A DNA stretch of 64,000 nt, from assembly GCF_000344155.1 (NCBI RefSeq), contig NZ_BAOQ01000002.1:1-64000 (forward strand). Direction: 5' to 3'. The translations under genes were made by a program, and so were the position numbers. Origin of the DNA: Gordonia paraffinivorans NBRC 108238. Lineage in GTDB: Bacteria > Actinomycetota > Actinomycetes > Mycobacteriales > Mycobacteriaceae. Each line of letters begins with the position of its first letter. Position 1 is the first letter of the stretch. Shown here piece after piece: positions 1 to 18,149 of the stretch. Under the pieces are notes generated by a model. It saw nothing but the letters and a program-made list of their open reading frames with translations, was not told the DNA's origin and searched no databases.

Positions 1-1629
1 GTGCTCATCGTGACCGAGCCGGCAGTCGCCACATCCCTTGACGCAGTGGCGATCGTCGACGAGATGCATCGACTTGCCACACAACTGCTGCAGGCGAATC
101 TGTCGGCGTTGTCGGATGCGCAGGTCGAGTATGTGGCCGCCGAAACCGAGCGCGTCGTAGCGCGAGTGACAGCCGCCGGCGACCAACAGCTGGTGGAGGT
201 CGAAACCCGCGATCTTCCGCGCAAGACCGGCCGGCGCAACATCCTGGCCTACATGCACGATGTGTTGCGGATGACCCGGCCTGGTCGCCGCCGCGCCGAG
301 GCGAAAGCCATCGCGACGTTCACCGACCTCACCGGCCAACCCCTCCAACCCGAACTGCCCACCCTGGCTGCAGCATTCGCCGACGGACGCGTCGGCCCCG
401 ATCACGTACACGCGGTGATGGACGTGCTCGATCAGATCCCCACCGCAATAGCTCACGACGTGACGGCTGCTGCCGAACGGACGATGGCCGAGTACGCGAC
501 CTGGATGACACCACCGGAGATCGAGCGTGCCGGCGCCCGCCTGCTGGCACACCTCGACCCCGACGGGGTCTTGACTGACCTCGAGGACCGCAGACGACGC
601 CGCAAGCTCTGGATCAACCGGCAACGCGCTGATGGCACATCGAAACTCACCGCCACCCTCACCCCAGAACTCCGCGCACGCCTGGCGACGTTCTTGGATG
701 TGTGGGCGCGCCCAGGCATGAACAACCCCAACGACCCCGACTCACCGACCGGGGCGATCCAGGACGCCGACCCCGAGCGGCTGGAAGCGGCCGCGCAACG
801 GGATCTGCGTACCCCGGCACAACTCAACCACGACGCCCTCAACGCACTGCTGCAAGCGGTGTTCGACGACGGGTTGCTCGGCAAGACTCATCGGGGGTTG
901 CCCATCCAGTTGATCGTCAAAGCCGACCTGGCAGATCTGCAGCGTGCGGCCGGGCTGGCGGCCACCGCTGATGGCACCCTCATCGACATCGAAGACCTGA
1001 TCAGGACAGGCGCCACAGTGCAGCCATGGCTGGCGATTTTCGTCGATGCCACCGCCGCACCGCTGTATCTCGGACGCGGCACACGTCTGGCGTCGATGGA
1101 ACAACGCCTGGCGTCCTTCGCCCGTCCCGGCGGTGACAGCTGCTCCGCGCCCGGTTGTGACGTGCCCGCAACGCGTGTGGAGATGCACCACGCCCATACC
1201 GACTGGGGTGACGGTGGTGGTACCGATATCGACAACCTCGCCCCGGCCTGCACCCGCCATCACCACATGATCGGCAACCGTCCCGGCGACTACACCACCC
1301 GCATGATCGGCAGCGGACCCGACGCCGGGCGCTGCACCTGGGAACTCAACACCGCCCCCGGCACACCACCCCGACGCCCGCGGATCAACCGAAAACCCGA
1401 CATCGGCCACCGATTCCGGCACATACTCACCGAGATCCGGAACGACATCCACCCCACACCTGACAAGCCCGACCAGCGCAGGGCACCCGACCAACACGGA
1501 CAACCCGAACCCGGGTCGCCCGACGATCCGCCGCGCCCACCACGGTTCCACTACACCGACCTGCAGAACGCCACACCGGCCGAACTCGCGCTGTATGCGG
1601 CGCTACTCGACCACGCCTACCCGAACTGA
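1..1629 (+). CDS. DUF222/HNH endonuclease (13E12-repeat family)
   Basis: A 542-residue protein of the actinobacterial DUF222-HNH family, which includes the M. tuberculosis 13E12 repeat proteins. The DUF222 region covers roughly residues 20-370. The HNH nuclease module follows, with CSAPGCDV at about 381-388, EMHHAH near 394-399 and ACTRHHHM near 418-425. This keeps the paired cysteines and the catalytic histidines. The C-terminal 100 residues are Pro/Arg-rich and look disordered. These genes are multicopy and mobile-like, but no flanking repeats are visible here. The GTG at base 1 is the first usable start, yet the window begins there, so the real start may lie upstream. The biological role of the family is unknown. 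Confidence 0.85.
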   Translation: MLIVTEPAVATSLDAVAIVDEMHRLATQLLQANLSALSDAQVEYVAAETERVVARVTAAGDQQLVEVETRDLPRKTGRRNILAYMHDVLRMTRPGRRRAEAKAIATFTDLTGQPLQPELPTLAAAFADGRVGPDHVHAVMDVLDQIPTAIAHDVTAAAERTMAEYATWMTPPEIERAGARLLAHLDPDGVLTDLEDRRRRRKLWINRQRADGTSKLTATLTPELRARLATFLDVWARPGMNNPNDPDSPTGAIQDADPERLEAAAQRDLRTPAQLNHDALNALLQAVFDDGLLGKTHRGLPIQLIVKADLADLQRAAGLAATADGTLIDIEDLIRTGATVQPWLAIFVDATAAPLYLGRGTRLASMEQRLASFARPGGDSCSAPGCDVPATRVEMHHAHTDWGDGGGTDIDNLAPACTRHHHMIGNRPGDYTTRMIGSGPDAGRCTWELNTAPGTPPRRPRINRKPDIGHRFRHILTEIRNDIHPTPDKPDQRRAPDQHGQPEPGSPDDPPRPPRFHYTDLQNATPAELALYAALLDHAYPN

Positions 1630-1789
1630 CTCGGCCTCGGGCATGTCGACCGGCTTCGACGGAAACGCAGTCGCCCGCGACATCGCTGGGGATCAACGAC
1701 GTTCATGGATGTCGCCGATGCAGGATGACGTCGCACGCGCCATGGAGACGTTCGTCGGTCAGAGAATCGTCCGACGAGATCACCGCGAC

Positions 1790-2806
1790 TCACAGCGCGG
1801 TGGGATCTCCTGACAGCAACTGCCCGGCCTCGGCAGAGATGGACAACGCGGTCTTGGCCCACCGCTGTGAGGCACCGACGAGACCGCACGTGGGTGTGAC
1901 GATGATGTTGTCCGCCAGCACTTTTCGGTTCAGGCCGATGCGATCGGTGATCGCTGCGAGGTCGGTGGCGACGGTCTCGGCGCGCACCGGACGTGCCGGC
2001 TCGGTCGACGGAATGCATCCCGCCACCAGGACTCCACCGCGGTCGATGAGCATGCCGATGCCGTCGAGGTCCGCGGCGGTCGGCGCGGTGACGTCGATCG
2101 AGTACGCTACCGTCTTCAGGTGTTCGAGGAGGTCCCAGCGGGGCTTGTTGCAGTCGTGCAGGATCACCGGTGCGCCCACGTGCTCGACGAGTTCACCGAG
2201 GGCACGCGCCACCTCGATCGCCGGGATCGCGCGGATCGGGTCGAACCTGGTGAGCGGGCGGACCGTGCCGTCGATCACCTGGCCGATCATCGGCTCGTCG
2301 ATCTGGACGACGACCTCGGCGCCGAGGCGTCGGCGGATCTCGCCGACGTGGTGGGCGATTCCCTCGGCCGCGGACGCGACGATGTCCCGGACTGCACCGG
2401 GATCGCGCAGCACGCGGTGACCGTTGGGCAATTCGACCATCGCCGACGTCGTGAAGGGGCCGGCCACCTGGACCTTGAACGCGCGCCCGGTTCCCACGAA
2501 TCCGGCGTTCTCCCATAGCTCTTCGACGACGTCGAGATCCTCTTTGAGGTAGTCGGCGGCGCGTCGGGTGAGCAGTGAGTCACGTTGCGCGAGGCGGTAT
2601 CCCCAGGTCGCGGTGTCCATCGGCAGGTCGACGAGCAGCGCCGCCATCCGACCGATGAGATCGGCGCCGACGCCCCTGCCGGGCAGCTCGACGAGATGGG
2701 CGAGATCGAGCTCGCCGTTGACGATCGACGAGGCCGCACGCGGGTCGGTGCCGGGCATCGACCCGACACCGGTGCCGAGCCCGGTGGGCAGTGCCGGTGT
2801 GGTCAC
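1790..2806 (-). CDS. Cobalamin-independent methionine synthase-like protein (Rv3015c type)
   Basis: A 338-residue member of the MetE C-terminal/UROD-like barrel superfamily. It opens with a glycine-rich GTGVGSMPG segment and carries [10 protein letters not shown] near residue 160, VILHDCNK near 225, and a C-terminal TPTCGLVG motif. These His-Asp-Cys and Thr-Pro-Thr-Cys elements resemble the zinc/homocysteine site of MetE. The protein is less than half the length of full MetE, so canonical methionine synthesis is not established. The GTG start at 2806 overlaps the mnmA stop as GTGA, which indicates translational coupling and fixes the start. The longer upstream reading frame lies antiparallel to nothing and is simply the end of mnmA in another frame. 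Confidence 0.8.
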
Positions 2807-3921
2807 CGAGCCGCTGCGACGGTCGGCTGCGACGAGGTGGCCGCGATGCGTCCGCACCCTACGACCTGGTCGCCGCGCTCGGCGTCCAGCAGATAGAGGA
2901 CCGCTGCCTGGCCCTTGGCCACACCGGTCAGCGGTTCGTGCAGGACGATGTCGATCGCGGGCTCGCCGTCGACGGTGGTCGGGGTGGCGGTCACCGGCGC
3001 GAGTCCGCCGTGCGCCCGGACCTGGACGACGGCCTCGAACGGCGCATCGGGGGCCTCCCCCGACGTCCAGACCGCGCGGGTGGCCGTGATGCCCCACACC
3101 TGCAGGTCGGCTGCGGTGCCGACGGTCACGGTGCCGCTCTCCGGGTCGATGTCGGTGACATAGCGCGGCTTGCCGTCCGCGGCCGGCGCCTCGATGCCGA
3201 GGCCCTTGCGCTGGCCGATGGTGAAGCCGTGGACGCCGTCGTGTTCGGCGAGACGCTCACCGGAGGAGGCGTCGACGACCGCACCGGGCCGGACGCCGAT
3301 CCGGGCGCCGAGGAAGGCGCGGGTGTCGCCGCTGGGGATGAAACAGATGTCGTGCGAGTCGGGCTTGTCGGCGACGGCGAGGCCGCGGCGGGCGGCCTCC
3401 GCCCTGATCTCGCTCTTGGGGGTGTCCCCGACCGGGAACATCGCCCGCGCCAACTGATCCTTCGTCAGCACGGCGAGGACGTACGACTGGTCCTTGTCGG
3501 AGTCGACGGCACGGCGTAGTTCGCCGTTCTCCAGTCGCGCATAGTGTCCGGTCGCCAGCGCATCGAAGCCGAGGGCGATCGCCTTGTCGGCGAGCGCGGC
3601 GAACTTGATCTTCTCGTTGCAGGTCAGGCACGGGTTCGGCGTTTGCCCGGCGGCATAGGCCTCGACGAACTCGTCGATGACGTCGTCTTTGAAACGGTCC
3701 GCGAAATCCCAGACGTAGAACGGGATTCCGAGCACGTCGGCGGCGCGGCGGGCGTCGTCGGCGTCTTCTCGCGAGCAGCAGCCGCGCGAACCCGTCCGTA
3801 GCGCCCCGGGCGCGGTGGACAGGGCGAGGTGGACGCCCACGACCTCGTGGCCGGCGTCGACCGCACGGGCGGCCGCAACCGCCGAGTCGACGCCGCCGCT
3901 CATCGCTGCCAGTACGCGCAT
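2803..3921 (-). CDS. mnmA: tRNA-specific 2-thiouridylase MnmA
   Basis: A 372-residue PP-loop enzyme that 2-thiolates U34 of Lys, Glu and Gln tRNAs using sulfur relayed from a cysteine desulfurase. The ATP-binding PP-loop SGGVDS is at residues 8-13. The catalytic pair is NPCLTCN near 103-109 and [10 protein letters not shown] near 195-204. The start at 3921 ([13 protein letters not shown]) shares one base with the iscS stop (TGATG). The gene therefore sits between iscS, the likely sulfur donor, and the methionine-synthase-like gene in one operon, the order known from mycobacteria. Confidence 0.95.
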
Positions 3922-5138
3922 CACGAAACCTTCCCGCCGGGTGCGGAGACGAGGCCCGCTGCGCGTGCGCGATCGACGACCTCGTCGATGACCTGGGCCA
4001 CCGCGTCGATGTCGGCGTCGGTGGTGGTGTGGGAGAGCGAGAACCGCAGCGACGAGCGGGCGTCGGCCATGCCGAGGCCCATGGCGATCAGCACGTGGCT
4101 GGCCTGGGCGACACCCGCGGTGCACGCGGACCCGGTGGAACACTCGATGCCCTTGGCGTCGAGGAGCATCAGCAACGAGTCGCCCTCGCATCCGGCGAAG
4201 GACACGTGCACGTTGCCCGGCAGTCGCGCGTCGGCGGCGGCGCCGTTGCGCACCGTGCCCTCGACGCCCAGCAGGACGTCGGTCAGCCTCGACGCCAGCT
4301 CACGCACGCGGGCGGTGTTGGCGTCCATGTTCTCGACGCACCAGGTGAGCGCGGTGGCCATGCCGACGGCCCCGGCCACGAACTGGGTACCCGAACGCAC
4401 GTCGCGCTCGTGTCCCCCGCCGTGCTGCAGCGGCACGCACGGCACGTCGCGGCCCAGCAAGAGCGCTCCCACTCCCTGCGGCCCGCCGAACTTGTGGGCG
4501 GCGATGCTCAAGGCGGACAAGCCACTCGCCGCGAAGTCGACGGGCACGTGTCCGACGGCCTGGATCGCGTCGGAGTGCACCGGGACACCGAATTCGGCTC
4601 CCAGTGCGGCGATCTCGTGGATCGGCTGCATCGAGCCGACCTCGTTGTTGGCCCACATCACCGAGATGAGCGCGGTCTCGTCGGCGTGTGCCTCGAGCTC
4701 GGCGCGCAGATCCGCCGGCGACACGACGCCCTCGGCGTCGACCGGCAGCACCACGAGCTCGGCGTCGTCGTCGGACGCGAGCCACTGCGCCGGGTCGAGG
4801 ACGGCGTGGTGCTCGACCGCGGAGACGATGATGCGGCGTCGCCTGGCATCGGCGCGACGGCGCGCCCAATAGATGCCCTTGATGGCGAGGTTGTCCGACT
4901 CGGTGCCGCCGCCGGTGAAGATGACCTCCGACGGGCGCGCGCCGACCGCGGCCGCGATTGCCTCGCGCGCCTCCTCGAGCCGGCGTCGTGCCGCGCGCCC
5001 GGACCCGTGCAGCGACGAGGCGTTACCCGGGTCGGCGAAGACAGCGGTCATCGCCTCGACGGCTTCGGGCAGCATCTGCGTCGAAGCGGCGTGGTCGAGG
5101 TAGACGGACGCGCGCGGCGCTCGGGTTGACAAGGGCAT
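3921..5138 (-). CDS. iscS: Cysteine desulfurase (IscS type)
   Basis: A 405-residue PLP-dependent enzyme that removes sulfur from cysteine for tRNA thiolation and Fe-S cluster assembly. It starts with VYLDHAAST. The PLP lysine is in [12 protein letters not shown] near residue 200. The catalytic cysteine loop is [10 protein letters not shown] near 325-334, which is the IscS rather than the SufS form. I chose the ATG at 5138. A TATCCT -10 hexamer at 5152-5147 lies 8 nt upstream, which suits a nearly leaderless transcript. An in-frame ATG 36 nt further upstream would place the start inside the promoter. This is the first gene of the iscS-mnmA operon. Confidence 0.93.
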
Positions 5139-8740: not shown

Positions 8741-10312
8741 GTGACGAACACCAGCTCTTCGGTTCCGGGACAGTTCACCTTTGTCCTTCATTCCCATCTG
8801 CCGTGGCTTGCCAATCACGGTCGCTGGCCGGTCGGCGAGGAATGGCTGTATCAGTCGTGGGCGGCGTCGTACCTGCCGCTGTTCGACATGCTCGAGCGAC
8901 TGGCCGACGACGGGTTCACCGATCAGTTGTCCCTCGGCATCACCCCGGTGCTGGCCGCACAGCTCGACGACCCGCACTGCGCGGCGTCGATGTACGAATG
9001 GCTCGCCGACTGGCAGCTACGGGCGACCGAGGCCGCCGTCTCGTCCGACCCCGACCGCGCCGAGGCCGGGAGTCGCGAATACCTCGCCGCCCAGCGCGCG
9101 CTGGAGACCTTCGAGACCAAGTGGCGTCACGGGGCCTCCCCGCTGATCCGGCGGGTGGCGTCGAGCGGGGTCGTCGAGATCCTCGGCGGGCCGCTCGCGC
9201 ATCCGTTCGCCCCGCTCCTCGATCCCCGGCTGCGGATGTTCTCGCTCACCGAGGGACTCGCCGACGCGCGGGCGCGGTGGGGATTCGACCCGGCCGGCAT
9301 CTGGGCACCCGAGTGCGCCTTCGACCCGGGCATGGAGGCCGAGTATGCACGCGCCGGAGTCGGCCATTTCATGGTCGACGGCCCGACGCTGCACGGCGAC
9401 ACCGCGCTCGGGCGGCCCGTCGGCGACAGCGGCGTCATCGCCTACGGGCGCGACCTGACCGTCAGCTATCGCGTCTGGTCGCCGAAGTCGGGCTACCCGG
9501 GCCACGCCGCGTACCGCGACTTCCATACCTACGACCACGAAACCGGCCTGAAGCGTTTCCGGGTGACCGGGCGGTCGGTGCCCGGCGACCAGAAAAAGCC
9601 GTACGACCCGTCGCGCGTCGACGCGGTGATCGACCGGCACGTCGAGGACTTCATCGGTCACGTCCGGCAGCGGCTCATCGACGAATCGGCGCGCATCGGC
9701 CGAGATGCGTTGGTGGTGGCCGCTTTCGACACCGAGCTCTTCGGCCACTGGTGGCACGAGGGTCCGGTGTGGCTGGAACGTGTGCTGCGACGGCTGCGCG
9801 AGGTCGGGGTGAAGGTCGGGACCCTGGCCGGGGCGACGCGAGCCGGACTCGTCGGCGAACCGGTCGACCTGCCCGCGTCGTCGTGGGGTTCCGGCAAGGA
9901 CTGGCGGGTGTGGAACGGCCCCCAGGTGGAGCACCTGGTGACCCTGAACGCCGAGGTCACCGAGACGGCGCTCGACGCCGTCGCGAAGTTGCTCAGCGAT
10001 CGCGGTCAGCGGAATCGGGTCGCCGACCAGATCGTGCGGGAGACGCTGATGACGGTCTCGTCGGACTGGCCGTTCATGGTGTCGAAGGACACCGCTGCGG
10101 AGTATGCGGTCTCGCGTGCGCACACGCATGCACACGCCACCCGGGAGATCTGCGACGCCGCGCTGCGGGGTCGGGACGCGGTCGCCGAGGAACTGGCGCG
10201 GAACTGGGCGCGCGCCGACAATCTCTTCCCCGCGCTCGACGCACGCCGCCTTTACGCGATCATGACGGCGGAACCTCGCGCGAAGGGGCACGGCGCCGAG
10301 GGGGGCATGTGA
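8741..10312 (+). CDS. GH57 alpha-1,4-glucan branching enzyme (Rv3031 type)
   Basis: A 523-residue glycoside hydrolase family 57 enzyme predicted to add alpha-1,6 branches to the methylglucose polymer. The N-terminal motif HSHLPWLANHGRWPVGEEW is typical. The nucleophile is the Glu in GIWAPECAF near residue 190, and the acid is the Asp in AAFDTELFGHWWHEG near 330. The GTG at 8741, only 4 nt beyond the previous stop, gives the family length. The upstream open frame would overlap the methyltransferase. The stop shares one base with the next ATG (TGATG), so the three MGLP genes form one operon. Confidence 0.9.
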   Translation: MTNTSSSVPGQFTFVLHSHLPWLANHGRWPVGEEWLYQSWAASYLPLFDMLERLADDGFTDQLSLGITPVLAAQLDDPHCAASMYEWLADWQLRATEAAVSSDPDRAEAGSREYLAAQRALETFETKWRHGASPLIRRVASSGVVEILGGPLAHPFAPLLDPRLRMFSLTEGLADARARWGFDPAGIWAPECAFDPGMEAEYARAGVGHFMVDGPTLHGDTALGRPVGDSGVIAYGRDLTVSYRVWSPKSGYPGHAAYRDFHTYDHETGLKRFRVTGRSVPGDQKKPYDPSRVDAVIDRHVEDFIGHVRQRLIDESARIGRDALVVAAFDTELFGHWWHEGPVWLERVLRRLREVGVKVGTLAGATRAGLVGEPVDLPASSWGSGKDWRVWNGPQVEHLVTLNAEVTETALDAVAKLLSDRGQRNRVADQIVRETLMTVSSDWPFMVSKDTAAEYAVSRAHTHAHATREICDAALRGRDAVAEELARNWARADNLFPALDARRLYAIMTAEPRAKGHGAEGGM

Positions 10313-11574
10313 TGAAGATTCTGCTCGTGTCGTGGGAGTACCCACCCGTGGTCGTCGGCGGCCTCGGCCGGCACGTCCATCACCTCGCCACGGAACTGGC
10401 CGCCGCCGGACACGAGGTGGTGGTCCTGACGCGTCGTCCCTCCGGCACCGACGCCCTCACCCACCCCACCGTCGATGCGATGGTCGAGGGTGTGCGCGTG
10501 ATCGCGGTCGCCGAGGACCCGCCGGAGTTCGACTTCGGGCAGGACATGATGGCGTGGACGCTCGCGATGGGCCACTCGTTCATCCGCGCGGGGCTGCGAC
10601 TCCTGGCCGGTGAGCGGAGCTGGACCCCCGACGTGGTGCACGCCCACGACTGGCTGGTTGCGCACCCGTCGATCGCGCTCGCCGAATTCTTCGACGTGCC
10701 ATTGGTTTCCACCATCCACGCCACCGAGGCAGGCCGGCACAGCGGCTGGGTCAGCGGCCCGACGAACCGCCAGGTGCACTCGGTCGAGTGGTGGCTGGTC
10801 ACCGAATCCGACTCTCTCATCACATGTTCGGCGTCGATGCGCGACGAGGTGAACCGCCTGTTCGGCTACGACGCCGGCGACATCACCGTGATCCACAACG
10901 GAATCGACGTCCGCACATGGCCGTTCGCGCCGAGCCCGCGGACGAGCGGCCCGGCGGAACTGTTGTTCGCCGGTCGGCTGGAATACGAGAAGGGCGTGCA
11001 GGACCTGTTGGCCGCGCTCCCCCGCATCCGGCGCAGCCACCCGGGCACCACGCTGACGATCGCCGGCGACGGCACCCAGCGGGACTGGCTGCTGGATCTG
11101 GCTCGCAAACATCGCGTCGCGAAGGCGGTGAATTTCCTCGGCGCCGTGGGCCACGAGGACCTGGTGGCGCTGATGCACCGCTGTGATGCGATCGTGCTGC
11201 CCAGCCGTTACGAGCCGTTCGGCATCGTCGCACTCGAGGCCGCCGCCACCGGCATCCCGCTGGTGGTGTCCACCGCAGGCGGTCTCGGCGAGGCCGTGCA
11301 GGAGCCGGACACCGGGCTCACGTTCGAGCCCGCCGACGTCGCGGGTCTCACCGCGGCCGTCCGCGCAACACTTTCGGACCCCGATGCGGCAGCCCAGCGC
11401 GCGATTCGCGCTCGGGCACGATTGACCGAGGAATTCTCTTGGGCCGAGGTCGCAGAAAGAACGGCTGCGGTTTATCTGGCCGCAAAGCGTCGTGTGCGGC
11501 ACCCCGTCGGACGCCCCGATATCCCTTTACGCCCCCTTCCGGAACGCGATCCGGGCAATCCGGTCGAATCGTGA
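10312..11574 (+). CDS. GT4 alpha-1,4-glucosyltransferase (Rv3032 type)
   Basis: A 420-residue GT-B glycosyltransferase predicted to elongate the alpha-1,4-glucan backbone of MGLP (and possibly glycogen). The N-terminal acceptor loop is SWEYPPVVVGGLGRHVHHL. LLFAGRLEYEKGVQDLL begins the donor domain near residue 216. The EX7E motif is in PSRYEPFGIVALEAAA near 300-315. The start is fixed by the TGATG overlap with the branching enzyme. It is a distant paralogue of the GlgA-type enzyme at 56.5 kb. The next 150 bp carry the promoter of the SipW cassette. Confidence 0.9.
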   Translation: MKILLVSWEYPPVVVGGLGRHVHHLATELAAAGHEVVVLTRRPSGTDALTHPTVDAMVEGVRVIAVAEDPPEFDFGQDMMAWTLAMGHSFIRAGLRLLAGERSWTPDVVHAHDWLVAHPSIALAEFFDVPLVSTIHATEAGRHSGWVSGPTNRQVHSVEWWLVTESDSLITCSASMRDEVNRLFGYDAGDITVIHNGIDVRTWPFAPSPRTSGPAELLFAGRLEYEKGVQDLLAALPRIRRSHPGTTLTIAGDGTQRDWLLDLARKHRVAKAVNFLGAVGHEDLVALMHRCDAIVLPSRYEPFGIVALEAAATGIPLVVSTAGGLGEAVQEPDTGLTFEPADVAGLTAAVRATLSDPDAAAQRAIRARARLTEEFSWAEVAERTAAVYLAAKRRVRHPVGRPDIPLRPLPERDPGNPVES

Positions 11575-11723: not shown

Positions 11724-12245
11724 ATGAATCGGAAGGCCAAAGGCGCAGTTGCTGTCGGCGCTGGTGCAATTCTGCTGCTGGGTGGGTTGGGGTCGTATGC
11801 GTTGTGGAGTGACCAGGAGAACGTTGCCGGGGGTTCGATCACCGCGGGAAACTTCTTTCTCGACTGCCCTGCGGGCGCCTGGACCGACGTATCCGGCGAC
11901 GTCCCGGAGGTGGCGATCAACCCCGCCACCGACCTGATGGTGCCGGGCGACACCTGGGAGTACAACGCGAACTGCACCGTGACGGCCACGGGAAAGAACA
12001 TGAAGGCCGAATTGTCGATCATCGGGATCGGCACCGGATCCACCACGCCGACAACGACATATGTCACCACTACGACGGTGGTGGGCGGTGGCACGCCCAA
12101 TACGCCCGTGACAGTCTCGAACGGCCAGGTCCTCCCCGTCACCGTGACTGTCGCTTTCTCGTCGGCAACTCCGAATACGGACTTCACGAACGGGACGATC
12201 AATGTCAGCGGCATGAAGATCGAACTGAACCAAGTCCGTCCGTAA
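11724..12245 (+). CDS. SipW-dependent exported protein 1 (TasA/camelysin-like)
   Basis: A 173-residue protein with an atypical signal peptide: RKAK, a 20-residue hydrophobic stretch, then GSYALWSD. The Ala-Leu-Trp motif just after the hydrophobic core marks SipW-processed substrates such as Bacillus TasA and camelysin. The mature part contains GGSITAGNFFLDC, two cysteines (near residues 50 and 84), and a Thr-rich central run, consistent with a small beta-sandwich. I chose ATG 11724 over an upstream start because GGAAGGG lies just before it and the charged n-region then has normal length. It is the first gene of the five-gene cassette. Assembly into fibres is inferred from family membership only. 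Confidence 0.8.
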   Translation: MNRKAKGAVAVGAGAILLLGGLGSYALWSDQENVAGGSITAGNFFLDCPAGAWTDVSGDVPEVAINPATDLMVPGDTWEYNANCTVTATGKNMKAELSIIGIGTGSTTPTTTYVTTTTVVGGGTPNTPVTVSNGQVLPVTVTVAFSSATPNTDFTNGTINVSGMKIELNQVRP

Positions 12246-12258
12246 CCGCGAAGAATTC

Positions 12259-12831
12259 ATGCCCGCAGCCCTCAAGCGACGGGGCGTCCTCTTTGCAGCT
12301 CTCGCGATCGGGGTGGTGGTGCTGCTCTTCGGATCTGTACAAACCACCCTGGCGCTGTGGACCAAGCAGGCGGACACCTCCGGCAGCAATATCACCACCG
12401 GAACCATCGGTCTCGCACCGGGTTCCGGTGGTGGTTCGTCGTTCACTTTTCCAGCGCTGAACGGAACCAACATGGTTCCCGGCCAGTCGTCCCAGGCTGT
12501 CCTGAACATCGCCAACACCGGTTCGACACCGCTCAAGTTCCGGCTGGCTTCCGCCGGACCGGTGGTGTCGACGCCCGGTGCGTCGGTGTCGATCAAACTG
12601 TCGGGGAGCCAATCAACAACATGCCCCGCCAGTAATGTCCCGCTGAGCGGCGCCTTCACCGCGACCGGGACCCTCACTGGCGTTTCCGACATCGACGGCG
12701 TGGAGATTCCGCTTGCAGCGGGCGCCTCGACCGCGTGGTGCATCCGAGCCGAGTTCGTTTCTGTGACCGGAACACAGCCGGCAACCTTCTCCATCACCTT
12801 CAACTTCGACGCTCAGCAGGACCGACCATGA
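12259..12831 (+). CDS. SipW-dependent exported protein 2 (TasA-like)
   Basis: A 190-residue exported protein that begins 13 nt after protein 1. Residues 6-8 are KRR, a hydrophobic core runs to about residue 30, and LALWTKQADTSGSNITTGTI carries the same Leu-Trp motif and Thr/Gly pattern that follow SipW cleavage sites. The mature domain has MVPGQSSQAVLNIANTGSTPLKF, a pattern of TasA-type beta-sandwiches (residues spaced around NxGS), and two cysteines near residues 121 and 155. Its stop overlaps the signal peptidase start as ATGA, so the two are translationally coupled. Confidence 0.8.
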   Translation: MPAALKRRGVLFAALAIGVVVLLFGSVQTTLALWTKQADTSGSNITTGTIGLAPGSGGGSSFTFPALNGTNMVPGQSSQAVLNIANTGSTPLKFRLASAGPVVSTPGASVSIKLSGSQSTTCPASNVPLSGAFTATGTLTGVSDIDGVEIPLAAGASTAWCIRAEFVSVTGTQPATFSITFNFDAQQDRP

Positions 12832-13607
12832 GCGAGGACTCGCAGGTGCCAGAAGCGACTGTCGACGATCAACCCACCATCGAGTTGGAAAGAGTCGAGC
12901 CGGCAGTCGCCGGAACTGCCTACTCCCAGTCTGCCGGCACGCAGTCGACGGCTACCGAGTCGTCAGGCACCAGGCCGGCAGGCATCGGGTCACCTGACAA
13001 CGAGAGCGCAGGCGACGCCGACGAGAGACGCGGCCCCCTGCACTATGTCTGGCAGATTGTCTCCTGGGCGCTCCTGATCGGCGCGTTCGCGCTCCTGTGC
13101 GTGACCATCCTCATCCCCAAGATCGCCGGCGCACAGACCTATACGGTGCTGACCGGGTCGATGAAGCCGAACTATCCGCCGGGAACACTCATCGTCGTGA
13201 AACCGGAGCCGACAGAAGAGATCCGGGTGAACGATGTCATCACCTATCAGATTCGCTCAGGCTCACCGGATGTCGTCACCCACCGAGTCATCGAGGTGAC
13301 CGAGGACGACGAGGGCGAGACGCGGCTCATCACCCAAGGTGACAACAATGGCGCCCCCGACGACGAACCTGTCCGCCCCGTTCAAGTGCGCGGCACGCTG
13401 TGGTACTCCGTGCCCTACATCGGCTGGGTCAACAACTGGCTGACCAGCGAGCGCCGCACCAAGATCATCTTCGGCCTCGCCGGCGCGTTGTTCGTCTACG
13501 GCGCATGGCAGTTCGTCGCCGACTATCGCGACGGCAAGAACGACGACGATTCCGACGAGCCGGAACCCGAGCCCCAGCCCGAACCCGAGCCCGAGGCGAC
13601 CGCATGA
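12828..13607 (+). CDS. Signal peptidase I, SipW (Ser/His) type
   Basis: A 259-residue membrane signal peptidase. A hydrophilic Ser/Thr/Glu-rich N-terminal extension covers residues 1-65. The first membrane helix is about 72-97. Catalytic Ser111 is in VLTGSMKPNYPPG and His152 in DVVTHRV. This is the Ser/His dyad of the SipW/ER-type enzymes rather than the Ser/Lys dyad of LepB. The box E motif GDNNGAPDD follows near 168. A second helix spans about 213-232, and the tail is a Pro-Glu repeat. It is coupled on both sides by ATGA overlaps to TasA-like genes, its presumed substrates. Confidence 0.88.
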   Translation: MSEDSQVPEATVDDQPTIELERVEPAVAGTAYSQSAGTQSTATESSGTRPAGIGSPDNESAGDADERRGPLHYVWQIVSWALLIGAFALLCVTILIPKIAGAQTYTVLTGSMKPNYPPGTLIVVKPEPTEEIRVNDVITYQIRSGSPDVVTHRVIEVTEDDEGETRLITQGDNNGAPDDEPVRPVQVRGTLWYSVPYIGWVNNWLTSERRTKIIFGLAGALFVYGAWQFVADYRDGKNDDDSDEPEPEPQPEPEPEATA

Positions 13608-14167
13608 GACGGATTCCCTGGTCCCCCAACGTGTCACGCCGGGTGCGTGCGCTGCTCAGCTGCGGAATCCTGCTGACCACAGGGACGCTCGGCACGACGG
13701 CCCTATGGTCCACCACCGCCGCAACCACCTCCGGCACCTTCACCACCGCCAACATCGAACTCAGGGTGAACGGCACCGACGCCTACACGTTTACATTTCC
13801 CGGTTCGCTCCTGCCAGGCAGCACCACCGCCGCTGTGGTCAACGTTCAGAACGTCGGTTCAGTGGCAATCCGATACAACGCAAGGGTCTCCAGCAGCGAC
13901 GCGTTGGGGCAGGCAATGCAGCTGAAAGTCACTGCCGGGGGGTCAGTCAGCGGTTCGACATGCACGGCAGGTACTGGACTGGTCGCCGATGGTGTTTCGA
14001 TCACAGGTGCCGACGCGGCTTTTGCCACGAGTCGGGGTCCATTGGCCGCAACAAGCGGTGTGGAGACGTTGTGCCTGCAGCTGACCCTGCCCATGTCCGC
14101 GCCCGGAACACTGGCCGGCAACACCGGTAAGACGGTCAAGTTCACCTTCGACGCGACGGCGGCCTGA
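13604..14167 (+). CDS. SipW-dependent exported protein 3 (TasA-like)
   Basis: A 187-residue exported protein with an Arg-rich n-region (MRRIP..SRRVR), a hydrophobic core and GTTALWSTTAATTSG, the SipW-type motif. The mature region begins SGTFTTANIELRVNG and has the LLPGSTTAAVVNVQNVGSVAIRY pattern seen in protein 2, so the two are homologous beta-sandwich proteins. It has two cysteines near residues 124 and 163. The start overlaps the upstream peptidase stop (ATGA) and its own stop overlaps the next start (TGATG). This tight packing argues that peptidase and substrate are needed together. Confidence 0.8.
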   Translation: MRRIPWSPNVSRRVRALLSCGILLTTGTLGTTALWSTTAATTSGTFTTANIELRVNGTDAYTFTFPGSLLPGSTTAAVVNVQNVGSVAIRYNARVSSSDALGQAMQLKVTAGGSVSGSTCTAGTGLVADGVSITGADAAFATSRGPLAATSGVETLCLQLTLPMSAPGTLAGNTGKTVKFTFDATAA

Positions 14168-15768
14168 TGGTCTACTCCGCGCAGAACGAATTCCCTACCG
14201 TCGAGCATTCCGCTCCGGTCACACGCACTCGCGGCGACCTCCTCCTCACCGTCGGCGCCGGGCTGGGCACACTCTGCGTGGTCGCGGCAGTGCTCGCCCT
14301 GAGTCTGGGCCTCCGTCCGATGATCTTCGAGACCGGATCGATGGCGCCCACCATTCCCACCGGTTCGCTGGGCCTGAGTCGCACTGTTCCGGCCGCGTCT
14401 GTCCACGAGGGCGATGTGGTCAGCGTCGTCCGCCAAGACGGCGTCCGCGTCACCCACCGCGTCGAATCAGTCTCTGAACCCACCGGTAACTCGGTGACCC
14501 TTCGTCTCCGCGGCGACGCGAACGACACCACGGATCGACAGCCTTACACCGTGACCGAGGTGCAGCGCATCGTGGGCTCGATCCCTCTGCTCGGTTACGT
14601 GGCTGCGTGGCTCAAGAATCCCTACACGCTCGCACTTCAGGCCCTGACACTCGTGCTCCTACTCGGGGTTGCCTTCGCCCCCAAGCGTGGCTGGCGCAAC
14701 TCACCGGGAGGGCAACGCATTCTGGCCGGCACGGCCGCGGCCACCGTCGTCGTGATGGGCGTCGGCAGTGTTCACGGCGCCGGCGAGGCACACGCAGCCA
14801 CGACAGCCACCGCCACCGGCACGGTGAGTGCCGGGGTTCCGAACGGTCCGACTGTTCTCAACTGCAGTAACACTTCGCTCCTGATCTTGTTTTCTTCCGT
14901 CCAGCTGAGTTGGCCGGCCTCACCCGTCTACACGGGATACATGTTCAGAGCCCCCGATGAACCCGACATCGACGAACAGTACGTGCCTGCCACCAAGACC
15001 AGCGGCACCGAGACCTACGTGGTCGCCGAGGGCCTGCTCTCCGCTCTTCTGTCCTTGTTGGATCTCTTCGGCAGCGGCACCTCGATCAGGCTCCGGATGA
15101 CCAACATGATCGGGAACTTCGAATCCACGACGTACAGAGACGTGTGGATCCGCAAGACTGCCGGCCTCGAATTGCCGCTGGGCATCAGATGCGGAACTCC
15201 TCCGATCGGAGCACGTCTCGCCACGCCGGAGTCAGCGACTACCGAATCCTCGGAATCCACCGAAGCCAAACCGTCAGAGTCCGCCGAACCCGACGAGTCC
15301 TCCATCAGCAAGTCCGCCGAACCCGACGAGTCGACTCCAGCGAGCAAGTCCGCACAGGAGGACAAGTCCACAGACGACTCGTCGACCCCCGCCTCGACGA
15401 AGGTGGACCTCCCATCCGGCGGAAAGCTGTCCGACTCCGGCGATTACGCCTATTACAGGTCGGGCGGCGAGGTGACGATCCGTAGTGCCGAGACCGGCAA
15501 ACCCGAGTACGAGGGCCGGTTCTCGTCCAGCAGCGACATCCGCTGGCTACCCGAGACGTCGACGCTGGAGATCACCGAGCCCGACGGCACGGTGACGCTG
15601 GTGAAGAAGGTCGGCTCGCGCTGGACCGAGACCGTGCAGGTCGCGGAGACCACCGAGAAACAGCGCTCCGCCAAGAACATGGAGACGTCGGAATCGACGC
15701 CCGAGGCCACCGAGGAGGCGAAGGACACCGAAGAGGTACCGACCGCCGAAGAGCCCGGCGAGTCCTGA
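14167..15768 (+). CDS. SipW-type signal peptidase fused to an extracellular domain
   Basis: A 533-residue multidomain protein. Residues 24-46 form a membrane helix. Catalytic Ser58 is in ETGSMAPTIP, His97 in VTHRV, and box E appears as GDANDTTD (116-123). A second helix spans about 155-172. Residues 184-210 look like an internal signal peptide (hydrophobic stretch ending AHA). The part beyond is extracellular-looking. It has a FN3-like segment (PTVLNCSN...VQLSWPASP...YTGYMF), then an acidic Ser/Glu repeat region (about 350-410, SAEPDES twice), then a second small beta-rich region (GGKLSDSGDYAYYRSGGEV) and an acidic tail. The joining of protease and apparent substrate in one chain is unusual. 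Self-processing is an inference. Confidence 0.82.
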   Translation: MVYSAQNEFPTVEHSAPVTRTRGDLLLTVGAGLGTLCVVAAVLALSLGLRPMIFETGSMAPTIPTGSLGLSRTVPAASVHEGDVVSVVRQDGVRVTHRVESVSEPTGNSVTLRLRGDANDTTDRQPYTVTEVQRIVGSIPLLGYVAAWLKNPYTLALQALTLVLLLGVAFAPKRGWRNSPGGQRILAGTAAATVVVMGVGSVHGAGEAHAATTATATGTVSAGVPNGPTVLNCSNTSLLILFSSVQLSWPASPVYTGYMFRAPDEPDIDEQYVPATKTSGTETYVVAEGLLSALLSLLDLFGSGTSIRLRMTNMIGNFESTTYRDVWIRKTAGLELPLGIRCGTPPIGARLATPESATTESSESTEAKPSESAEPDESSISKSAEPDESTPASKSAQEDKSTDDSSTPASTKVDLPSGGKLSDSGDYAYYRSGGEVTIRSAETGKPEYEGRFSSSSDIRWLPETSTLEITEPDGTVTLVKKVGSRWTETVQVAETTEKQRSAKNMETSESTPEATEEAKDTEEVPTAEEPGES

Positions 15769-15942: not shown

Positions 15943-16719
15943 CTACTCGGCGTGGCCTCCCGCCGCCTTGTTCGCGGCCTTCTCGGCCGCGGCCTTCTTG
16001 CGCTCGATGTCGGCGAGCGCACGCTCGAGCTCGGCACGCTCGGCGGCGTTCTTGTTCCACTCCTCCATGCGGTTCTTGACCGCGCGGGCCGGGGCGCCGA
16101 CGGCGATCGAGTAGTCCGGGATCTCGCCCTTGACCACCGCGTGCGAGCCGAGGACGCATCCGCGGCCCACGATGGTGTTGCGCAGCACCGACACCTTGGC
16201 GGCGACCCAGGTGTCGGGGCCGATGCGGACCGGGCCCTTCACGATGCCCTGGTCCTTGATGGGCAGGTTGACGTCGTCCATCTTGTGGTCGAAGTCGCAG
16301 ATGTAGCACCAATCGGCGACGAGCGTCGACCCGCCGATCTCGATGTCGAGGTAGGCGTTGACCACGTTGTTGCAGCCGAAGACGGTCTTGTCGCCGATCC
16401 TGAGGCTGCCCTCGTGGCAGCGGATGGAGTTGCCGTCGCCGATGTGGACCCAGCGACCGATCTCCATGCGCGCGAGTTCCGGGGTGCAGTGGATCTCCAC
16501 GTTGCGCCCGAGGAACACCATCCCCTTGAGAACGATGTGCGGGTTGGCCAGCCGGAACTTCGCGAGCCGGTAGTAACGCACCAGGTACCAGGGGGTGTAC
16601 GCCTTGTTGCGTTTCACCCAGCGCAGCGAGTCCAAGGTCAGGAATCGTGCCTGCTCGGGGTCGCGGCGACGGCCCGCGCGTCGGCGGGACCGGTACGAGG
16701 CGTTCCACATCGTGGTCAT
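15943..16719 (-). CDS. Left-handed beta-helix acyltransferase (Rv3034c type)
   Basis: A 258-residue hexapeptide-repeat acyltransferase of the maltose/galactoside acetyltransferase superfamily. Imperfect hexapeptide turns run from GMVFLGRNVEIHC (about 67) to IVGRGCVLGSHAVVKGEIPDYSIAVGAPARAVK (about 180-215). DFDHKMDD near 142 may hold the catalytic histidine. The C-terminus is an Ala/Glu/Lys helix. MGLP carries acetyl and other acyl groups, and the homologue lies in the mycobacterial MGLP locus, so a polymer acylation role is likely but unproven. The ATG at 16719 leaves a short basic N-terminus. The longer frame would cross the promoter of the divergent lipoprotein gene. Confidence 0.8.
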   Translation of the reverse strand: MTTMWNASYRSRRRAGRRRDPEQARFLTLDSLRWVKRNKAYTPWYLVRYYRLAKFRLANPHIVLKGMVFLGRNVEIHCTPELARMEIGRWVHIGDGNSIRCHEGSLRIGDKTVFGCNNVVNAYLDIEIGGSTLVADWCYICDFDHKMDDVNLPIKDQGIVKGPVRIGPDTWVAAKVSVLRNTIVGRGCVLGSHAVVKGEIPDYSIAVGAPARAVKNRMEEWNKNAAERAELERALADIERKKAAAEKAANKAAGGHAE

Positions 16720-16811
16720 GGGACAAACCCTAAACGACCGGCTTTTCGCACACGATAGGCTCACTGCTGGCACGTCTCGTGCCGGTGACGAACGATCGAT
16801 GAGGAGCGCCG

Positions 16812-18149
16812 ATGGCCTTGGCACGACGGCAGGTGTCGCGACACCGCCGATCCGCGCTGACCCGCCTGTTCGTGGCCGTCACGGCCGTGTGCTCACTGGG
16901 GCTGGCCGCCTGCTCCGACGGGCACATCGACGTGCGATCCATCCCGAGCATCGGGTGGCCCAGCTACGGCGGCGTCCCCGGCAACGGCAACTTCGCCTAT
17001 GCCGACGTCCCCGACGACCTCACCCTCAGCTGGACCCGCCCCACGGGAGGCCCGGTGACCGCGCCCCTGACCATCTCCGGCAAGGGCAACGTCGGCGTGA
17101 CGTCCAACGCTCCCGAGGGCTGTAACGTCCTGGTGCTCGACGGCCGGTCGGGACGCAAGAACTTCTGCAAGGACATGCGGGCCGGCGTCGAGATGAACGC
17201 GATGCTCGTCGACCAGTACGACCAGCCGTACCTCGGTGAGGAGACCACCTTCCTCGCCTTCAACGCCGGCGGCGCGATCCGGTGGCGTGCCGGGGTGATC
17301 GGCGTGCCGCTGTCGGCGAAGTTCGCCGCCCCGAACGTCGTGCTGGTGGTGACGACGCAGGGCCAGATCCTGCTGATCGACACCCAGCGCAACGAGCTCG
17401 TCGCCCCCGAGGTCAAGTTGCGCGACGACGCCGATCCCGAGCAGCCGCTGCTCGGCTTCGACGACTGCGCCCGCGGCGGACCGAAGTGCGCGATCCCCGC
17501 CCCCGCAGCGGTCGACACCGCTCGGGAACGCTTCTACCTCAACTTCTTCCCGCAGGACGCCCAGACGTCGCAGATCCGCGCCATGAAGTACAGCGCGGTC
17601 GGTGGTCAACGCGAGGTCCGACCGGCCTGGAAGGCCGAGATCCCGTCGGGCGTGATCGGTACGCCCACACTGTCGATCGACGGCACGACGCTGTACGCGT
17701 TCTCCCGCAACGGCAAGCTCGTGGCTCTCGACGCCGAGAACGGTTCGACCAAGTGGACCCACGACCTCGGCGACCCCGGTTTCGCGACCATGACCGTCTC
17801 ACCGAGCGGTTTGATCATCCCCGCCGGCCGGGTCGGTGCGCCGCTGCGTCTGCTCCGTGACGCCGGCGACCGCGCCGAGCAGCTGTGGCAGCGCGACGAC
17901 CTCGCGACCGCGAGCCTGTCGACGCTGACCCAGCAGAGCACCGCCTGGACCGTCGTGCGCGACCAGGGCGAGGAGACGCTGTCGCTGGTGGAGGTGTCCA
18001 CCGAGGACGGTTCGACGAAACGGACCCTGCCGCTGCCCAATTCGTCCGGATTCGCCACCGGTGTCGCGGTCTCGTACTGGGGTCAGATCGCCACTGCGAC
18101 CAATGCCGGCGAGGTCTACTTCTTCGACAGCAAGAAGAACCTGGAATAG
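16812..18149 (+). CDS. PQQ-type beta-propeller lipoprotein (Rv3035 type)
   Basis: A 445-residue secreted lipoprotein. An Arg-rich n-region, a hydrophobic core and the lipobox LAAC place the lipidated cysteine near residue 34. The rest is a PQQ-like beta-propeller, with repeated blades such as GTPTLSIDGTTLYAFSRNGKLVALDAENGSTKWTHDLGD (here about residues 280-318). GAGGAGCG lies before ATG 16812. The neighbouring acetyltransferase and methyltransferases suggest a link to envelope polysaccharide, but no ligand can be named. A strong terminator follows. Confidence 0.82.
   Translation: MALARRQVSRHRRSALTRLFVAVTAVCSLGLAACSDGHIDVRSIPSIGWPSYGGVPGNGNFAYADVPDDLTLSWTRPTGGPVTAPLTISGKGNVGVTSNAPEGCNVLVLDGRSGRKNFCKDMRAGVEMNAMLVDQYDQPYLGEETTFLAFNAGGAIRWRAGVIGVPLSAKFAAPNVVLVVTTQGQILLIDTQRNELVAPEVKLRDDADPEQPLLGFDDCARGGPKCAIPAPAAVDTARERFYLNFFPQDAQTSQIRAMKYSAVGGQREVRPAWKAEIPSGVIGTPTLSIDGTTLYAFSRNGKLVALDAENGSTKWTHDLGDPGFATMTVSPSGLIIPAGRVGAPLRLLRDAGDRAEQLWQRDDLATASLSTLTQQSTAWTVVRDQGEETLSLVEVSTEDGSTKRTLPLPNSSGFATGVAVSYWGQIATATNAGEVYFFDSKKNLE

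Follow-up and report, generated by a model that had tools for sequence, protein, structure and literature searches.

A five-gene SipW-type secretion cassette of Gordonia paraffinivorans, conserved among actinobacteria, as a candidate export and assembly module for a TasA/AbpX-like surface fibre

The first 64,000 nucleotides of contig NZ_BAOQ01000002.1 of Gordonia paraffinivorans NBRC 108238, here called the window, contain a cassette of five co-oriented genes on the forward strand (11724..15768). It encodes three exported proteins (S1, S2 and S3) and two signal peptidases (P1 and P2) in the order S1-S2-P1-S3-P2. This order is that of a conserved actinobacterial module, and there is strong reason to regard the cassette as a dedicated SipW-type secretion module. 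With moderate confidence, sequence comparison further points to a dedicated export and assembly module for a surface fibre of the TasA/AbpX kind, in which S3 is probably a relative of TasA and AbpX.

A preliminary description of this DNA had reported five open reading frames (ORFs) with overlaps at 12828, 13604 and 14167, and these coordinates are confirmed. S1 (11724..12245) is followed after a gap of 13 nt by S2 (12259..12831), whose end overlaps P1 (12828..13607) by 4 nt in an ATGA. P1 overlaps S3 (13604..14167) by 4 nt, and S3 overlaps P2 (14167..15768) by 1 nt. The same description recognized three SipW-type signals and two Ser/His peptidases, correctly in both cases: the signal regions read YALW-S in S1, LALW-T in S2 and TALW-S in S3, and the catalytic pairs are invariant in the rows aligned.

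The arrangement recurs well beyond the window. In a family sample of 121 genomes from 31 genera, searched at E 1e-5, P1 matches occur in 60 genomes (the window's included) and 18 genera, and 45 of these 60 reach an expectation value (E) below 1e-40 by manual count. Forty of the 44 non-window genomes at that level supplied the family loci, which were read by ORF and profile searches with S1, S2, S3 and P profiles built from these same 40 loci. The order S1-S2-P1-S3-P2 appears in 30 of them, a permuted double form, S1-S3-P2-S1-S2-P1, in seven, and other arrangements in three. A second set of named loci, which shares genomes with the first, comprises the best 80 of 375 P1 relatives in GTDB species genomes, ranked by P1 similarity. 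Here 54 loci have the window's order, ten read S1-P1-S3-P2 with S2 undetected, six are permuted as above, and ten are arranged otherwise. Hosts among these best 80 include Gordonia, Williamsia, Rhodococcus, Rhodococcoides, Prescottella and Dietzia, together with Aeromicrobium, Nocardioides, Arthrobacter, Glutamicibacter, Microbacterium and Frigoribacterium. Phylum-wide, the P1 profile at E 1e-20 matches 39 of 396 sampled genomes, again counting the window's own. The family model TIGR04089, which includes S1, matches only 4 of 150 genomes across the order (the window's included), two of them above cut-off, and by that model speaks against a wide spread.

All five genes seem to be kept by selection, as their dN/dS ratios against the nearest relative (genome G117) lie between 0.15 and 0.35, at amino-acid identities of 55-81% and with the synonymous distance of S1 near saturation. 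These ratios and the recurrence of the gene order across genera argue that the cassette is not a chance assembly. Several Rhodococcus and Prescottella cassettes have an additional S1-like gene, located downstream of either P2 or the P2 tail (L082, L083, L091 (~9.7 kb), L093 (~8 kb), L089, L100, L112, L128, L137 and L152 (~9.8 kb)). At locus L067, units of S1, S2 and S3 that are nearly identical in score and N-terminus are repeated round one cassette, which looks like tandem substrate amplification.

The signal peptides share one pattern. An Ala stands two residues ahead of the signal Trp in all 98 aligned rows (34/34 for S1, 32/32 for S2 and 32/32 for S3), which consist of the window proteins and chosen relatives (33 of 53 S1, 31 of 42 S2 and 31 of 44 S3 matches). 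Among the unaligned S1 matches, four second copies (L056, L057, L059 and L064) have A-A-F instead. If cleavage occurs after the Ala, the Trp takes position P2'. An aromatic P2' residue makes for poor cleavage by Escherichia coli LepB, and TasA, with Phe at P2', is a substrate of SipW (PMC10269814). S1 scores 33 bits against the SipW-type signal model TIGR04088 (cut-off 19). Throughout the host genome only the S1 place passes this model, which is insensitive and also misses S2 and S3. A search of the same genome with the S3 profile returned nothing better than E 0.43 beyond S3 and S2. In two more of the unaligned S1 matches, S1-like proteins of relatives (L045:8543-9178 and L071:8972-9544), the N-terminal hydrophobic stretch ends by eye in a lipobox-like Cys, which suggests lipid-anchored variants.

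P1 is a signal peptidase of the S26B or endoplasmic reticulum type, SipW-like, with Ser111 (codon 13158) and His152 (codon 13281) invariant in 18 aligned rows. P2 is a second enzyme of the S26B type, and its Ser58 (codon 14338) and His97 (codon 14455) are invariant in 27 rows. These alignments hold the window sequences and chosen matches (17 of 39 for P1, 26 of 41 for P2). In both enzymes the Ser/His pair replaces Ser/Lys, the mark of S26B. P1 passes model TIGR02228 (89.7, cut-off 51.85), and its profile matches human SEC11A (E 7.7e-15) and SEC11C. P2 scores 48.1, just below that cut-off, and was filed as a divergent relative; PF10502 matches 26 of its 27 aligned rows at E up to 0.1. Both enzymes fall below the cut-off of 190 for the Bacillus SipW equivalog NF046067 (P1 80.4, P2 48.7).

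A peptidase tree places P1 and P2 on opposite sides of a 100/99 branch. The P1 side also holds the peptidases of Bacillota and of one archaeon that have TasA-type neighbours, and a lone Pseudarthrobacter peptidase, and the P2 side includes the Curtobacterium outgroup. The tree has a midpoint root and several long outgroup branches, and the Enterococcus faecium sequence (L212) was left out for want of the trimming motif; only the P1/P2 split is used from it. By this split P1 and P2 are distinct paralogues kept together, and a recent local duplication was dropped as their origin because of the branch between them. On Pseudarthrobacter plasmid pACHL01 (L211:5854-7061), the gene after an S26B-type peptidase gene encodes a PH-domain protein, and no SipW-type substrate is annotated next to the peptidase.

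P2 is more than a peptidase. Beyond the catalytic part it has a second hydrophobic span, a basic loop and a further hydrophobic stretch, after which its relatives show a G-T-x-A-A-[FLW]-T-D-like sequence. This internal SipW-type signal segment (14719..14799, about residues 185-211) marks the boundary between peptidase and passenger and has diverged in the window copy. A profile of the segment (23 rows) aligns with the S3 signal region at E 6.2e-6 and a score of 29.0, and 60 shuffles score at most 11.3. Next come an exported passenger domain (approximately 14800..15200 by alignment of P2 rows), possibly Ig/Fn3-like, with an fn3 match in only 1 of 27 P2 rows (E 0.0043), then a linker rich in Ser, Thr and Glu, and a small conserved C-terminal domain (approximately 15426..15630 by alignment), also detected in relatives. 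P2 is thus, by its sequence, a peptidase joined in one chain to a fourth substrate of the SipW type. The preliminary description had called it a peptidase fusion, which holds as far as the fusion goes; its partner is now read as this fourth substrate, which some relatives encode as a separate gene.

Peptidase and passenger form one gene in 60 of the 80 named loci, and the passenger is a gene of its own in five and undetected in 15; the corresponding counts in the 40 family loci are 31, five and four. The ten split loci amount to eight distinct ones, as L063 and L152 give the same ORFs, and so do L071 and L131. Six of the eight stand-alone passengers show by eye a SipW-like junction near the start, with an aromatic residue in L063, L112 and L123; no clear junction is seen in those of L073 and L146. 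A stand-alone passenger on a Curtobacterium plasmid (L217) is not claimed, being recognized by eye only and giving no match to the P2 passenger profile at E 0.1.

The three separate substrates fall into two types. S2 and S3 are paralogues by profile comparison: their mature parts align over nearly their full length at E 7.4e-26 (hhalign). Each has an invariant Cys pair in its alignment (C122 and C161 in S2, over 32 rows; C120 and C157 in S3). S1 is a clear member of TIGR04089 (exp_by_SipW_III; 132.5 bits, cut-off 60), a model that covers S1 only of the cassette; S2 scores 16.2, below the cut-off. S1 is read as a type of its own, which has the signal in common with S2 and S3 and perhaps also the mature start. 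None of the five proteins passes a Pfam cut-off, and no NCBIfam model rises above cut-off for S2 or S3.

Several comparisons connect S3 with TasA and AbpX. Its signal region and mature start combine an A-x-aromatic cleavage region with the N-terminal strand layout of the TasA/camelysin type. Searched against PDB sequences, the mature S3 profile (57 rows) gives whole-sequence E values of 0.0013 and 0.0083 for AbpX and 0.06 and 0.076 for TasA. The TasA match consists of two colinear stretches, the N-terminal strand region and the last strand (weak, 4.3 bits), and pairs TasA F39 (8aur numbering) with a Phe conserved in S3. In the TasA fibre, F29 and F39 belong to the donor strand (PMC9674648). 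Searched with full-length rows at E up to 1, PF12389 (TasA/camelysin) is matched by 21 of 32 S3 rows (best 4e-6), 2 of 32 S2 rows (best 0.066) and 6 of 34 S1 rows (best 0.012). The gathering cut-off of PF12389 is passed at three places in 2 of 61 relatives' genomes, in S3 positions between P1 and P2, and 12 of the 61 have some match at E 1 or better. A TasA-family set of six rows, two of which (L210) are unannotated and were chosen because they lie downstream of a SipW-like gene, was aligned with each substrate in hhalign. S3 scores 39.3, which none of 60 column shuffles reaches (at most 12.8); S2 scores 29.5 (shuffles at most 17.3; probability 33%) and S1 16.3 (at most 16.0). Against the BsaA model TIGR04090 (cut-off 60) window S3 scores 18.7, and 12 of 32 S3 rows match it weakly (best 2.7e-5).

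A number of results weigh against a TasA-like fibre. Taken singly, the best stretches matched by the mature S3 profile fall short of the whole-sequence values, with i-Evalues of 0.033 and 0.013 for AbpX, 0.1 for the ciliary protein FAP74 and 5.5 and 6.7 for TasA. On whole sequences FAP74 (0.0037) falls between the two AbpX matches. Without the signal, 4 of 32 S3 rows still match PF12389 (best 0.002) instead of 21, so that much of the similarity is signal, and window S3 itself does not match PF12389 at E 1 or better. For S2 the probability against the TasA set is only 26-33%, and its mature profile finds no TasA in the PDB at E up to 5, the best match being ciliary FAP65 (E 0.00057). Mature S1 finds no counterpart in the TasA set, and S1 was dropped as a TasA homologue for this reason. 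To our knowledge, an invariant Cys pair like that of S2 and S3 is not known from TasA. Of the earlier TasA-like reading, a weak family similarity remains for S3 and, mainly through S3, for S2; the mature domain of S1 shows none.

The best-surviving alternative, in our judgement unlikely, is that the peptidases serve a private secretion line for separate, non-polymerising surface proteins such as adhesins or enzymes. The unmatched mature domain of S1, the extra S1-like proteins of some cassettes and the name camelysin metallo-endopeptidase borne by PF12389 would all fit such a line. However, the best non-ciliary matches of S3 among solved structures are filament subunits, AbpX and TasA, and the paralogues S2 and S3 are co-conserved round P1 in the manner of genes round SipW-type peptidases elsewhere. 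A second alternative, to which we give somewhat less credence, holds that only the signals and the peptidases are SipW-like. S2 and S3 would then be generic immunoglobulin-like (Ig-like) proteins, and the resemblance to TasA a convergent N-x-G strand-turn pattern. It draws on the loss of PF12389 matches once the signal is gone and on the Ig-like chains of FAP65, FAP74 and HYDIN, which score equally well or better. Yet the TasA match begins in the N-terminal strand region and has its weak second stretch colinear at the C-terminus, and the S3 score stands far above the column shuffles, a control that takes no account of an Ig-like pattern common to both.

If the fibre reading is correct, the five genes would be co-translated, and S1, S2 and S3 exported through Sec. 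Because an aromatic P2' residue hampers ordinary signal peptidase, the S26B-type enzymes P1 and P2 would process the three signals. The freed N-terminus of S3, with Trp at +2 and the conserved Phe at +13, could then serve as a donor strand to complete the following S3 subunit, the role that F29 and F39 have in TasA. S2, whose gene holds the tapA position and whose product carries the Cys pair, might start or cap the fibre. The P2 passenger, behind its internal SipW-type signal, may be a released factor or a membrane-held base. One version of the latter, speculative and improbable in our estimate, makes the passenger a base in the membrane that accepts the first donor strand, with the internal signal uncleaved or self-cleaved, so that cleavage is coupled to assembly. 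Gene content and order, the catalytic residues, the signal pattern, the paralogy of S2 and S3 and the P2 fusion are read from the sequences themselves; export and the steps after it are deduced from them. The fusion of peptidase and substrate would in any case offer a simple handle on the coupling of signal cleavage and assembly.

In the papers cited here, donor-strand fibres that go with SipW-type or related systems come from Bacillota and archaea (PMC9674648, PMC11952670, PMC10151520, PMC7395162). The cassette of Gordonia, Rhodococcus, Williamsia, Prescottella, Arthrobacter, Nocardioides and others would be a candidate donor-strand system in a third large group. In mycolate-bearing species such a fibre would need to pass the mycolate layer as well. 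The preliminary description had envisaged a mycolate-membrane actinobacterium with its own TasA-like matrix or fibre system; a probably TasA-like substrate remains, and the cassette is not confined to mycolate-bearing hosts, as it also occurs in Nocardioides, Aeromicrobium, Arthrobacter and Glutamicibacter, among others. We take these four genera to lack mycolates.

In the window, the cassette lies between a GT4 glycosyltransferase gene (10312..11574, forward strand) and a hexapeptide acyltransferase gene (15943..16824, reverse strand), and a methyltransferase and a GH57 gene also lie upstream. According to the preliminary description this is the MGLP locus, and the flanking genes, of the Rv3032 and Rv3034c types, are nearly adjacent in Mycobacterium tuberculosis. 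Among 59 Gordonia genomes, at the thresholds used, the GT4 gene is found in 56, the acyltransferase gene in 57 and both on one contig in 53. The two genes are less than 1 kb apart in 41 of these 53 and at least 2 kb apart in 12. Eight of the 12 wide gaps, the window's among them, contain all five cassette genes, one a decayed set and three other DNA. The decayed copy (L187, genome G288, 1415-4970) has S1 split over two ORFs and only the C-terminal part of P1, and its S2, S3 and P2 reading frames are still open. The other three genomes (L188, L189 and L190, in G269, G259 and G273) hold 2.4-5.4 kb without cassette matches in the same interval, so the site accepts different inserts.

The earlier statement that the cassette looks inserted is thus fair within Gordonia, where the flanks lie less than 1 kb apart in most genomes. 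A tie to this locus is not borne out: P1 matches at E below 1e-30 occur in 16 of the 59 Gordonia genomes (manual count), eight at this site and eight only elsewhere, the latter being P1 matches and not loci read as full cassettes. That the cassette serves the flanking GT4/acyltransferase pathway is highly improbable, since its presence at this site in eight Gordonia genomes and one decayed copy stands against closely spaced, cassette-free flanks in 41 of 53 genomes, strong P1 matches only at other sites in eight more, and a flank pair within the fetched stretch in just 2 of 40 family loci, both Gordonia, with GT4-like matches elsewhere of at most 76 bits. With the site polymorphic, a functional link to the flanking polysaccharide genes was dropped.

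The remaining features of the region are modest. A consensus promoter scan found no sites (shuffles: mean 0.4), and no Rfam family reaches its gathering score in the window. Six terminator-like sites (shuffles: mean 2.7, sd 1.7) lie mostly within genes, and no inference is drawn from them. The GC fraction is 0.639 in the cassette and 0.686 in the window, and 2% of 4 kb slices are equally low. This is compatible with acquisition and also with Thr/Ser-rich proteins, and is not used as evidence.

Parts of the cassette are already known to annotators, as NCBI models for S1 (TIGR04089) and P1 (TIGR02228) exist; the former was presumably built from Rhodococcus RER_14450. A literature search of incomplete coverage turned up nothing on the five-gene cassette, on its pair of peptidases or on the fusion of peptidase and substrate, an absence that is weak evidence, and the parts of PMC7766987, PMC5817068 and PMC12954529 that were available make no mention of the cassette. 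Related systems offer closer comparisons. In Enterococcus, Lacticaseibacillus and Halobellus, a SipW-like peptidase gene adjoins an annotated TasA family gene. A haloarchaeal plasmid (L216:2945-5064) encodes a SipW-type substrate, a peptidase and a TasA family protein in the layout of S2-P1-S3.

Among solved structures, AbpX is the best match of mature S3, which brings in the archaeal bundling pili (AbpX/ABPx of Pyrodictium and ABP of Pyrobaculum). These differ in belonging to another domain of life, and the similarity covers roughly the first half of S3. We know of no five-gene arrangement of this kind beside archaeal bundling pili. TasA and ABPx both form donor-strand fibres (PMC11952670). 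In Clostridium perfringens, a matrix protein that polymerises depends on SipW for its export, and the sipW-bsaA operon has one SipW and a two-component system (PMC7395162); S3 rows match the BsaA model weakly, and the cassette has two peptidases where that operon has one SipW. The Bacillus cereus CapP/TasA/CalY work is a related study (PMC13082335), and TapA and TasA of Bacillus offer a parallel for export and assembly (PMC10151520).

A close likeness is also seen with tapA-sipW-tasA of Bacillus subtilis. The preliminary description had considered the gene order foreign to Bacillus, but S2-P1-S3 reproduces the layout of that operon, in which two substrates whose signals have an aromatic P2' residue flank a dedicated peptidase of the S26B type, and the N-terminal half of S3 aligns weakly with TasA, the donor-strand Phe included. 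Unlike the Bacillus system, the cassette encodes an S2 and an S3 with an invariant Cys pair each, adds S1 and P2, combines two deeply split peptidases and fuses a peptidase to a substrate. With these additions, it may be the actinobacterial counterpart of the Bacillus biofilm-fibre system.

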